From a virus, in IMG/VR virus record IMGVR_UViG_3300032323_001387, positions 108,209-172,208 of that record: a DNA stretch of 64,000 bases. One strand, written 5' to 3'. A program made the translations under genes and the position numbers. Below the pieces are notes generated by a model, which did no database searches, had not been told where the DNA came from, and was given only the letters and a program-made list of their open reading frames with translations. This document shows, piece by piece, positions 8,715-63,510 of this stretch (its first letter is position 1; every line of letters begins with the position of its first letter).

Positions 8715-8743
8715 TTGACACAAATTGGTTTTGGTAATATAAT
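8715..8743 (+). promoter_or_regulatory. Early sigma70 promoter
   Basis: TTGACA (8715-8720), 17-base spacer beginning CAAATTGG, TATAAT (8738-8743). It belongs to the recurrent TTGACACAAATTGG family of this window. Confidence 0.9.
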
Positions 8744-9246: not shown

Positions 9247-10443
9247 ATGGCTACAAAAAGACCCGTTAAACAAGCAAGCTCGGATAAATTGGCTTGGCGT
9301 TTTGAACCGCCTGCTAAAACCGTTGCCTATCGAGAAGTTGATTCTAAGTATGTGGGCGAAGAACCAACTTACCCCAGCGTAGAAGAACAACAGGCTTGGA
9401 CTGCCAGCGAGTATAAAACACAGATCCTGCGTTCACTGAATTGGTATGCACATACACAGGATAAAAAGAAAAGTGCAGAATGGCTAGTTCAATTCCTTGC
9501 ACGTAATCCACGCCGCCAAAAATTAGCAGAAGCAGTCAAGCGTGGAGACATTTGGCCAGGCCCCACAGTTGGTTTTGCGCTAAGAGCAGGCCGAGTTGGA
9601 CTCGCATTGCGATTCGGTACACTTCGTACTCTTGTTAAACAGCTTAAACAAGCAGACGTTGGCATTGACACTAGTAATCAAGTCGCCGAAGTCGTTGTAG
9701 ATGACAAGCCAAAGTTCAATATCCAAGAACGTATGGCTGAAAAGACAGCAGAATTCCTGGGAGAACTCGAAGGTCGTTTTGATGACTTTATGGCTGAGTT
9801 CAAAGGCGAACCCAAGCTAGTCGAATTGATGACTTCGATGAACGTTCCTGCCGTACAGGTTAAAACAGTACAAGAGTTTATTAACAAAAAGATTGCAGAG
9901 TTTGAAGAAGTTAACTCTAGCAAAGATCCGCAGGTATTGGAAGCATATAAGCATCTAGGCAAGCGCCAAGTCAATACCATTATCAAATGGTGGACACAGG
10001 CTTTGGCAGACGCTAACAGCTACAACGTAGTTAAAAAAGCCAGCAAGGCTCCGCGTAAAAAGAAAGCAGTTACACCTGAAAAAGTTGTAGCCAAGTTGAA
10101 GTACGCAAAAGAGTTTAAAGAACTTAGTCTCAAAAGTGCGGACCCAACTACAATTCTCACGGCGCAAGAACTTTGGGTGTATAACACAAAGACACGTAAG
10201 CTGGGTATCTACATTGCAGATCAATATGCAGGCGCATTGACAGTTAAGAATAGTGCTATTGTAGGTTTTGATGCTAATGCAAGTGTACAAAAGACATTGC
10301 GTAAGCCCAAAGATCAACTTAAAGAGTTTAGTGCTAACGGCAAGCCGGCCGCTAAGAAATGGTTTAAAGGTATTAAAGCTACAGAAATCAAACTTAATGG
10401 CCGTATAAGTACTGATATCGTCTTGTTAAAGGTTTACAAATGA
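9247..10443 (+). CDS. Hypothetical early protein, Lys-rich, possibly DNA-binding
   Basis: A 398-residue protein with an acidic/Trp-containing N-terminus, a helical centre and a Lys/Arg-rich stretch near residue 265 (KKASKAPRKKKAVTPEK) that could bind nucleic acid. The C-terminal part looks beta-rich (ELWVYNTKTRKLGIYIADQ). No family could be named with certainty. It has a consensus early promoter and an AGGAG site, and overlaps the next gene by 4 bases. Confidence 0.7.
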   Translation: MATKRPVKQASSDKLAWRFEPPAKTVAYREVDSKYVGEEPTYPSVEEQQAWTASEYKTQILRSLNWYAHTQDKKKSAEWLVQFLARNPRRQKLAEAVKRGDIWPGPTVGFALRAGRVGLALRFGTLRTLVKQLKQADVGIDTSNQVAEVVVDDKPKFNIQERMAEKTAEFLGELEGRFDDFMAEFKGEPKLVELMTSMNVPAVQVKTVQEFINKKIAEFEEVNSSKDPQVLEAYKHLGKRQVNTIIKWWTQALADANSYNVVKKASKAPRKKKAVTPEKVVAKLKYAKEFKELSLKSADPTTILTAQELWVYNTKTRKLGIYIADQYAGALTVKNSAIVGFDANASVQKTLRKPKDQLKEFSANGKPAAKKWFKGIKATEIKLNGRISTDIVLLKVYK

Positions 10444-61048: not shown

Positions 61049-61077
61049 TTGACATTGTTGTTGGATAAGTATATAAT
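61049..61077 (+). promoter_or_regulatory. Consensus sigma70 promoter of tmRNA
   Basis: TTGACA, 17-base spacer, TATAAT (61072-61077), an ideal promoter; the predicted start is near 61084. Confidence 0.9.
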
Positions 61078-61083
61078 ATAATT

Positions 61084-61453
61084 TAAGACTGTATGAAGTA
61101 GACAGAAAAGGATTCAAGACGCGGGGGCAGTGCCCGCCAGGTCCACCAAAAACATACTTAAACCTCTGAAAAGAGGGGCCGACGGGATTCGGTAAAGTCT
61201 GATTGTAATATATCGGTTATTCCCATAGTATGTTTTTGATGGGCCTGACACAGGATCGATTGGGTCAAGAGTACGGAAATGGACAGTCCGGCAATGTAGA
61301 AGCCGTTAGGATTGGAGGCATGATCTGAAGCAAGCTAGACTTGACAGTAGGATTTTCCGGTCGAAGAAGCAAAACAAAGTAATCGCAAACGATTCACAAT
61401 ATTTGGTAGCAGCTAACGCTTGACGCCAAACGAGGTAGTTATACCTTGTCACC
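61084..61453 (+). ncRNA. ssrA: Circularly permuted tmRNA (two-piece ssrA precursor)
   Basis: The acceptor half comes first: T stem GCGGG / CCCGC (61122-61126 / 61134-61138) with loop GGCAGTG, acceptor strand CAGGTCC (61139-61145) and encoded ACCA (61146-61149). The coding half begins GGGCCTG (61242-61248), which pairs with CAGGTCC, and continues GACACAGGATCGATTGGG, as in tmRNA 5' ends. Resume codon GCA is at 61385, and the tag frame reads ANDSQYLVAANA, TGA at 61421. The spacer is closed by a perfect 11-bp helix (61149-61159 / 61228-61238) that extends the acceptor stem, as expected for pre-tmRNA cut by host RNases. Permuted tmRNAs are known from alphaproteobacteria, some betaproteobacteria and cyanobacteria. 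Confidence 0.9.
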
Positions 61454-61462
61454 AAAAATAGC

Positions 61463-61487
61463 AATAGGGACTTCGGTCCCTATTTTT
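61463..61487. terminator. Bidirectional terminator after tmRNA
   Basis: AATAGGGAC-TTCG-GTCCCTATT followed by TTTT on the plus strand. On the minus strand the hairpin is followed by GCTATTTTT, so it can also end the HNH gene transcript. Confidence 0.9.
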
Positions 61488-62112
61488 ATGGATATTGCCA
61501 AGTCCACGATCCATCCTCTCTATATAAACGTTTTCTGCCTATGACTTTGGCAGAAAGTTTAGCGGCACCTTTCCTGGCATTGTCAGCCGCAGTAGGATTA
61601 GGTAATCCTTTATTCCAAGATGTTCTACCATCTGCTTTTGTTTTTATGTTTCCGATAGGCTTATCTCTAAATTGAGAAATATATGTATTACGACACCGAG
61701 CATCGCAGTAATAATGTTCTTTTGGTGTATGGTGACAAAATTCCGTGTATTCTAAATCAGAATTACAATTGGAACACTTGTAATGTCTTATCTCTTTTGG
61801 TTTAGTCTTTGTTCGTCTGTTTGTTTCAGAGACCATTTTTGAATGTTCTATTCGAGATCTTTCATAATGTCTGTTAGAATACTTCTTTAATCTACCCATT
61901 AAATTCACGGCATGCCATAATGGTCCTCCGTGTATTTTAGCCAATAACAAATGTGCTATGTAATGTTCTCGATATGTTAAATTAACTAAATTAGAAGTAT
62001 CATCTGCACCGCCCAAACATTTTGGAAAAATATGGTGTGCTTCTTTGTATTGTGTTAAGGTTCTGAATTTGGCTCTTTCTATTAAAGATGTATAATGGTT
62101 TAAGTAGTTCAT
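61486..62112 (-). CDS. HNH endonuclease beside tmRNA
   Basis: 208 residues. HNH core: EAHHIFPKCLGG (His26, His27), SNLVNLTYREHYIAH (Asn41, His50), very similar to the core of the HNH at 31666. A Cys-rich zinc part follows (CSNC, later CDARC), then SWNKGLPNPTAADNARKGA, a NUMOD-like DNA-binding segment. Its ATG is 5 bases after a minus-strand late -10. It is a probable homing endonuclease inserted next to the tmRNA gene. Confidence 0.85.
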   Translation of the reverse strand: MNYLNHYTSLIERAKFRTLTQYKEAHHIFPKCLGGADDTSNLVNLTYREHYIAHLLLAKIHGGPLWHAVNLMGRLKKYSNRHYERSRIEHSKMVSETNRRTKTKPKEIRHYKCSNCNSDLEYTEFCHHTPKEHYYCDARCRNTYISQFRDKPIGNIKTKADGRTSWNKGLPNPTAADNARKGAAKLSAKVIGRKRLYREDGSWTWQYP

Positions 62113-62246: not shown

Positions 62247-62300
62247 TTGATTTATAGCGTAAATAAATGTACAATAACTGTACAGTACAAAAATGTACAG
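62247..62300 (+). promoter_or_regulatory. ahpC promoter with TGTACA operator-like repeats
   Basis: TTGATT, 17-base spacer, TACAAT (62270-62275). TGTACA occurs at 62268-62273, 62279-62284 and 62294-62299, plus a partial GTACA at 62285-62289. The first covers the -10; the last two form an inverted repeat CTGTACA / TGTACAG with a 9-base gap near the expected start. Confidence 0.65.
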
Positions 62301-62335
62301 GTAAGTTTTTTCATTTCACACACAAAGGAGATAAT

Positions 62336-62875
62336 ATGAAAACAGTTGGCGACAAATTAGCCCCATTCGCAGTCACAGGCGTTAAGCCAGGACAACCAGA
62401 AGATGCATTCTATACTATTACAGAAAATAGTTTCGAAGGCAAGTGGAAAGTAATCGTTTACTATCCAAAAGACTTTACATTCGTTTGCCCTACAGAAATC
62501 GTAGCCTACGACAAGTTGGCACAAGACTTTGCTGACCGTGATGCAGTATTGCTAACAGGCAGCACAGACAACGAGTTCTGTAAAGTGGCATGGCAAAATG
62601 CACATGCTGATTTGAAGAAAATCACACACCACCAGTTCGCTGACACACAGCGCGGTGAGTTGAGCTTGATCGAGCAGTTGGGCGTATTCTATGCTCCAGC
62701 AGGTGCCGCACTTCGTGCAACATTTATTGTTGATCCAAGCAATGAAATCCAGCACGTTACTGTCAACAACTTGAACGTTGGTCGTAGCCCAGAAGAAACA
62801 CTTCGTGTATTGGATGCGCTACAGACTGGTGAACTGTGTGCTTGCAACCGTACAGTTGGTGGCGAGACTCTATAA
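62336..62875 (+). CDS. ahpC: Alkyl hydroperoxide reductase C (2-Cys peroxiredoxin)
   Basis: 179 residues from ATG 62336 (AAAGGAG upstream); a start 69 bases earlier would lie in the promoter. Peroxidatic Cys51 in FTFVCPTE, active-site Arg and Trp regions (VAWQNAHADLKKIT, APAGAALRATFIVDP), and a C-terminal GELCACN with the resolving Cys at 168/170. It reduces peroxides, using a host reductase. A phage copy would protect the infected cell from oxidative stress. The ATG of the aldolase gene overlaps its stop. Confidence 0.92.
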   Translation: MKTVGDKLAPFAVTGVKPGQPEDAFYTITENSFEGKWKVIVYYPKDFTFVCPTEIVAYDKLAQDFADRDAVLLTGSTDNEFCKVAWQNAHADLKKITHHQFADTQRGELSLIEQLGVFYAPAGAALRATFIVDPSNEIQHVTVNNLNVGRSPEETLRVLDALQTGELCACNRTVGGETL

Positions 62876-63510
62876 TGTTAGAAACTATATGCGACACTCT
62901 TGTTGAAGCATATAGACGCAACTGGATTACCAGTCGTGATGGCAATGTTTCAATTCGTCATCACGACCGTGATCACTTTTATATCACACCCAGTGGCGTC
63001 CGTAAACAAACACTACAGCCGGACCAGTTCAAGAAGATTGGTATCAGCCGTGGCAGTCACGCCGCACCTGTGGCAATTGATCTTCCTTATACTGACATCA
63101 GTGCTAATCTAAAGCCCAGTGGTGAGTTGCCTCTACACTTCGGACTTCAGAAAGAAATGGGTCAGCATAGCAGTGAAGTAAGAGTGGTGGTACATCTACA
63201 TCCTACGTATTGTGTTGCTGCTATGCATCGTGGTATTGAGTTAAGTAGTTTAGCCAAGGAGTTTCCTGAACTTAGTCGCTATACCAAGGTTGCGTCTAAC
63301 GTTGGTGATGTTCCTCCAATCAGTCAAGAACTTGCAGATCAATGTTTTGAGAAGTTAGAACTCGATGATTATGGAAACATTGCTTATGATATCGTAGGTA
63401 TAAAAGGTCACGGAGTAGTGGCCATTGACACAAGCCCATGGAGGGCTTTTGAGCACATTGAACGATTAGAACATATTTGTCAAATCGTATTGGCCTCAGG
63501 GAAATATTAA
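62875..63510 (+). CDS. Class II aldolase/adducin-family protein
   Basis: 211 residues from ATG 62875, which overlaps the ahpC stop (TAATG). Family signatures: SRDGNVSIR (20-28), YITPSG, KPSGELPLHFGL (Glu84 and His88) and VHLHP with His107/His109 as zinc ligands, then IKGHGVVAID with a third His. Relatives are fuculose-phosphate or ribulose-phosphate aldolases and MtnB dehydratase; the substrate here is unknown. Co-transcription with ahpC is unusual. Confidence 0.88.
   Translation: MLETICDTLVEAYRRNWITSRDGNVSIRHHDRDHFYITPSGVRKQTLQPDQFKKIGISRGSHAAPVAIDLPYTDISANLKPSGELPLHFGLQKEMGQHSSEVRVVVHLHPTYCVAAMHRGIELSSLAKEFPELSRYTKVASNVGDVPPISQELADQCFEKLELDDYGNIAYDIVGIKGHGVVAIDTSPWRAFEHIERLEHICQIVLASGKY

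Follow-up and report, generated by a model that had tools for sequence, protein, structure and literature searches.

The window analysed here comes from an IMG/VR virus record of 172 kb, of which it forms the final 64 kb. It carries an intact phage gene for a two-piece (circularly permuted) tmRNA. Rfam release 15 finds two RNAs in the window, both on this gene. Model RF04321 (tmRNA_permuted) matches positions 61087–61423 over its whole length (model positions 1–213) with 84.6 bits (gathering cut-off 47 bits) and an E-value of 9.2e-15. Model RF01849 (alpha_tmRNA) matches with 53.5 bits (cut-off 50), the match being confined to the acceptor region (model positions 84–170 of 355); some relatives of the gene match this model from 1 to 355. 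ARAGORN, run on the window, missed the gene and reported nothing.

All parts of the gene lie on the plus strand. The acceptor piece (61087–61148) starts where the RF04321 model starts and shows covariation in 72 phage genes. It contains the 5' strand of the P2 helix (61111–61117, pairing with 61260–61266) and the T arm (61121–61137), made of a stem (61121–61125/61133–61137) and a 7-nt loop (61126–61132). In the acceptor stem CAGGTCC (61138–61144) pairs with GGGCCTG (61241–61247) in all seven positions, including the alanine identity pair G3–U70 (G61243–T61142), and is followed by A73 and an encoded CCA (61146–61148). The intervening sequence (IVS, 61149–61240) is 92 nt long, holds no ORF and ends with TGAT right before G1; it is closed by a perfect 11-bp helix (61148–61158 with 61227–61237), a structure that is conserved in relatives. 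The coding piece (61241–61462) consists of the acceptor 5' strand, the P2 3' strand, the PK1 region, the tag and a 3' pseudoknot. In the gene, the 3' half of the tRNA part, with T arm, 3' acceptor strand and CCA, precedes both the 5' half and the tag. Between PK1 and the tag there is an insert module of about 43 nt (61315–61357) that by direct comparison recurs in L112, L200 and L222. The tag frame (61385–61423) encodes ANDSQYLVAANA from the resume codon GCA (61385–61387) to position 61420 and ends with TGA (61421–61423). It is followed by an H-type pseudoknot (61430–61462; S1 61430–61436/61443–61449, S2 61438–61442/61458–61462).

The gene has signals of its own. A sigma-70 promoter, TTGACA-17-TATAAT (61049–61077, plus strand), matches the consensus at 12 of 12 positions about 10 nt ahead of the acceptor piece. 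A scan located a rho-independent, probably bidirectional terminator downstream (AATAGGGAC-TTCG-GTCCCTATT-TT, 61463–61486, plus strand) with a hairpin at 61463–61484 and a short T tail. Thus a preliminary description of this DNA, which had claimed a complete permuted tmRNA with a promoter and a terminator, is borne out by the full-length RF04321 match and by the presence of all the elements it listed, among them the two paired acceptor strands and the 11-bp helix; of the Rfam tmRNA models it had proposed as a check, the alpha model scores above its cut-off. There are nine perfect TTGACA-N16–18-TATAAT sites within the 64 kb, including those at 8715, 26517, 57026 and 61049, which is far above chance, so promoters of the host sigma-70 type are apparently in wide use by this phage. 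Convergent to the tmRNA gene, on the minus strand, lies an HNH homing endonuclease gene (61486–62112; PHROG 655, E-value 2.6e-41). Genes for a peroxiredoxin-like (62267–62875) and a class II aldolase-like protein (62836–63510) are found nearby and are possible metabolic cargo.

Relatives of the gene and their intervening sequences

Relatives were collected from IMG/VR with two search anchors, a 19-mer (GTGCCCGCCAGGTCCACCA) and a PK1 element (GGCAATGTAGAAGCCGTTAGG); either one matches at least 119 stretches of viral contigs. Parsing of the anchor matches together with those of a search for -NA tags gave 123 permuted tmRNAs, 75 of them unique, and the second anchor added 44 new unique genes. Rfam confirmed all ten of the relative loci tested. 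In an alignment of 72 phage genes all seven acceptor pairs and all five T-stem pairs are kept in every sequence, with exchanges in both strands, and the seven P2 pairs are nearly intact with compensatory changes. The G3–U70 pair is present in 75 of 75 phage genes, and TGAT or TAAT precedes G1 in 69 of 74. The IVS-closing helix has a median length of 11 bp (mean 9.8) in about 45 different sequences, as compared to a mean of 3.4 bp in shuffles. Stem S2 of the 3' pseudoknot covaries as well (GTTAT/ATAGC, GTTAT/ATAAC, ACTAT/ATAGT and long versions such as GGTAGGTT/AACCTACC). These helices are conserved far beyond chance. ARAGORN reports a tmRNA in 17 of 60 phage loci carrying a permuted one, and surveys of phages based on this program therefore miss most of them and are strong under-counts; the permuted phage tmRNA family seems badly under-counted.

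The IVS has a median length of 88 nt in phages and 30 nt in bacteria (maximum 126), and it reaches 130 nt or more in 22 of 108 phage relatives but in none of 106 bacterial genes. A single ORF fills 16 of the 19 unique long IVS of the first set, against 26 of 3800 shuffles, by which a chance origin is ruled out. These ORFs start 9–12 nt past CCA behind a TAAGGA-type site, and most of them stop 1 nt before G1. More specifically, the TGAT or TAAT ahead of G1 provides the stop codon and the ribosome-binding site belongs to the closing helix. In a second set, two of four long IVS are filled likewise; in a third, L354, an ORF of 101 aa begins at nucleotide 23. Complete IVS-filling ORFs are found in L101, L121, L131, L134, L147, L184, L185, L189, L223, L224, L379 and others. 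In four of six pairs of homologous ORFs pS is well above pN. Pfam recognizes one DUF2061 and one CxxCxxCC protein among them, and most have no match. The ORFs may be translated, in which case tRNA-processing enzymes would excise a minimal mRNA from the IVS. For the IVS of permuted genes, the available part of the tmRNA database paper names a tRNA and a repeat but no such ORFs; this way of nesting a protein gene in a stable-RNA gene would be undescribed in the literature searched. The jumbo phage of L147, which has a tmRNA with an IVS ORF, also encodes a GOLLD RNA with an embedded tRNA (9451–9914).

The tag ending

The tag of the window gene has 12 residues and ends with -AANA, i.e. with Asn-Ala in place of the C-terminal Ala-Ala of the ClpXP degron. 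The unusual end was the strongest point of the preliminary description, and it proves to be a conserved phage variant: some nine different tags with this ending occur in about 20 further viral contigs. A direct pattern scan for -NA tags picked out 27 stretches of viral sequence. tmRNAs account for 23 of them, some being copies of one phage, and the tags include ANDSQFLLAANA, ANDDTFLLAANA, ANDSHFLQAANA, ANDELFLMMANA, ANDEQFLMAANA, ANDDTYLLTANA and ANDSQFLQAVNA. ARAGORN independently called AANA tags in L206, L209, L212, L223 and L225. In the -NA tails the Asn codon (AAC or AAT) and the Ala codon (GCC or GCT) vary silently, and the stop codon is TAA or TGA. L400 encodes exactly the tag of the window gene with silent codon differences; this, together with the wide recurrence of the ending, rules out a sequencing error at the stop codon. 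Since synonymous codon changes and different stop codons are seen across the further contigs, the comparison of sequences indicates that the -NA tail is a conserved variant under selection, not an error.

Among such phages -NA tags are a minority. Endings vary (LAA, MAA, LVA, IAA, NA), and in two samples picked regardless of the tag 4 of 102 unique genes end with -NA and nearly all others with AA; most such phages thus do not need the -NA tail. The sound comparison with bacteria is a sample of 399 genomes of one phylum, in which all 105 permuted tags end with AA and none with -NA. A scan of 84,980 species genomes for the -NA pattern gave three matches, none of them a tmRNA, which is a weak negative because the pattern requires GTAANYGCAAACGA before the tag and few bacterial genes have it there. 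Alphaproteobacterial permuted tmRNAs (RF01849; merged model RF04321, PMC11915505) share with the window gene the gene order and the G3–U70 acceptor stem. A G-rich T loop of the GGCRGTR type and the resume sequence GCN-AAY-GAY are also common to both. The bacterial tags are mostly ANDN..., as compared to ANDSQYLVAANA in the window. Two bacterial genomes, G238 and G325, have two permuted tmRNAs each (L338/L339 and L334/L340); the second one, with the tag ANDNVALNEVRLAA and CCT replacing CCA, probably belongs to a mobile element.

Phage background, mosaicism and the HNH gene

PHROGs matches in the window include TerL, tail sheath, tail tube, SSB, UvsX, a DnaB-like helicase and NrdA. These T4-type head, tail and replication genes agree with the earlier assignment to a T4-like myovirus. 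Finding a permuted tmRNA in such a phage had been called notable, which does not hold: a two-piece phage tmRNA was published in 2022 for phage Melnitz, and 53 were found by ARAGORN (PMC9004378). Similarly to Methylophilales phage Melnitz and the pelagimyophages (Buchholz 2022), the window has a circularly permuted alpha-type tmRNA in a T4-like myovirus with no host integration needed. Melnitz differs in having a glutamine riboswitch, of which Rfam finds none in the window. In the available sections of the Melnitz and pelagimyophage literature (PMC9004378) there is no -NA tag ending, and it is the tag ending that looks new here, the two-piece phage tmRNA being already known.

TerL of the window is closest to those of Pseudomonas phage PA5oct and Sinorhizobium phage Phosso (51–54%). 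Phosso itself carries an unannotated permuted tmRNA (PV764938.1, 349596–350198, minus strand) with the tag ANDNVSTKVALAA and a 410-nt IVS. When the window region, L209 and L213 were searched with blastn, no cultured phage with the same gene was found; the matches of L209 amount to one 36-nt piece (7% of the query), and the window gene has no match among 50,697 phage records. The T loop had been taken as a hint of the host lineage. It does resemble the alphaproteobacterial loop, GGCGGTA or GGCAGTA in most of the bacterial permuted genes sampled. However, the host lineage cannot be read from it, as we are dealing with a mosaic gene and relatives sharing its tag module have TTCGAAT-type loops.

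The mosaic structure is seen when the parts of the gene are compared separately. Phages with the tags ANDSQFALAA and ANDAYFGEDRLAA agree with the window in every one of the last 59 nt of the acceptor piece, whereas the tag/3' module is 63–74% alike in the same comparison. Among -NA phages, tag/3' modules are 90–100% alike across acceptor halves that are less than 75% alike; L205 and L212, for example, share 100% of the tag/3' module and have 68% identical acceptor and 5' coding parts. As judged from these alignments, the window gene is a mosaic in which the acceptor half, the tag and the 3' module have different histories. The tag module would have been swapped among phages by recombination, and in some cases it was probably carried along with the neighbouring HNH gene. 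Full-length HNH relatives or C-terminal remnants adjoin several other -NA tmRNAs. Such adjacency is found at 7 of 22 -NA loci as compared to 1 of 94 others (p 2.6e-5) and, after dereplication, at 4 of 15 as compared to 1 of 60 (p 0.005), the counts being small and the loci partly redundant and not fully independent. The -NA module may owe part of its spread to co-conversion around HNH sites. Protein genes and homing endonucleases are associated also with the group I intron tmRNAs described in PMC11915505. The window gene differs from them in that it has no intron and the HNH gene lies outside it; in its relatives the ORFs are located in the IVS of the permuted gene.

Possible function and fate of tagged chains

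Transcription from the consensus promoter would yield a precursor that host RNase P is predicted to cut before G1 (61241), with trimming at CCA (61148). The IVS would be discarded and the two tmRNA pieces would remain paired. Host AlaRS would then charge the tmRNA via G3–U70, host SmpB would deliver it, and stalled ribosomes would resume at GCA and append A-ANDSQYLVAANA. SmpB was found in none of the 17 phage records searched, the window record included, and SspB in none of 16. The window record, which is possibly incomplete, has no SmpB, SspB or ClpP match and, as it stands, host factors must therefore serve.

With a -NA-COOH tail in place of -AA-COOH, tagged fragments would be expected to be poorer ClpXP substrates or to be sent to another protease. 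The phage would gain ribosome recycling and at the same time alter the fate of the tagged chains. Laboratory work uses tag variants of the ssrA-DD type as a tool to block degradation. The window ending is similar in that a C-terminal change is expected to weaken ClpXP recognition, and different in that it is natural, conserved in viruses and still has Ala as the last residue. E. coli ClpXP depends on the terminal Ala-Ala more than on any other element of the tag, and exchange of the penultimate Ala increases KM while Vmax hardly changes (PMC7652416). One would thus naturally expect degradation to be weaker or redirected, although the effect of Asn is read across from E. coli ClpX and may differ in the host. 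On the whole, we think it reasonably likely that the gene makes a working tmRNA that acts via host factors, that -NA-tagged fragments are poorer ClpXP substrates or are rerouted, and that the module is exchanged between phages. A bolder and more tentative idea is that phages have evolved an address label of their own, -[A/V]NA, which keeps the rescue and holds the chains off ClpXP, together with a permuted gene serving as a gene-capture site.

Alternatively, the tmRNA could be functional and the -NA ending neutral, if ribosome release is what matters and the tag C-terminus is free to drift. The variety of phage tag endings fits with this, and -NA could arise from -AA-stop by the loss of one base near the stop codon (GCTTAACGC to GCTAACGC, as the window reads). 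Drift would, however, yield a wide range of endings, whereas -AA and -NA prevail; in nine or so tags on different acceptor backgrounds the N and A codons persist, with synonymous variation and more than one stop codon. Both points make neutrality rather unlikely in our view. It is also conceivable, with a somewhat lower probability, that the gene is kept chiefly as cargo of a selfish HNH homing endonuclease, which would cut sites linked to the tmRNA and convert its 3' half, and that the phage benefits little. An intact HNH gene does abut the terminator, and HNH genes or remnants lie beside several -NA genes and almost no others, with the reservations about the counts given above. Most -NA tmRNAs nevertheless have no HNH neighbour, and structure and tag are kept in the phages without one; homing may spread the module and leaves its upkeep unexplained.

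Instead of tagging, the RNA could inhibit the host tmRNA system or act as a decoy, for which the tag-less tmRNA-like RNA of mycobacteriophage DS6A is a reported precedent (PMC11915505). Unlike that RNA, the window gene has a complete selected tag frame, a resume codon and a 3' pseudoknot, and we regard this role as improbable. Finally, the position of the gene near the end of a metagenomic contig would suit a non-functional relic captured from a host chromosome, but covarying helices, promoter, terminator and an intact tag in dozens of relatives make this very hard to believe.

If the working tmRNA with altered proteolysis is the correct reading, the -NA tag AANDSQYLVAANA should decay more slowly by ClpXP than AANDSQYLVAA or the E. 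coli tag. A conserved viral ending that breaks the Ala-Ala rule of bacterial tags offers a direct and cheap test of why phages carry tmRNA: for rescue, for control of proteolysis, or for both. As a lead only, given fragment records, an unplanned test and the fact that some phage ClpP homologues are prohead proteases, we note that ClpP homologues are present in five of nine records with other, mostly LAA, tags (G007, G033, G034, G035 and G036) and in none of seven with -NA (p 0.034).
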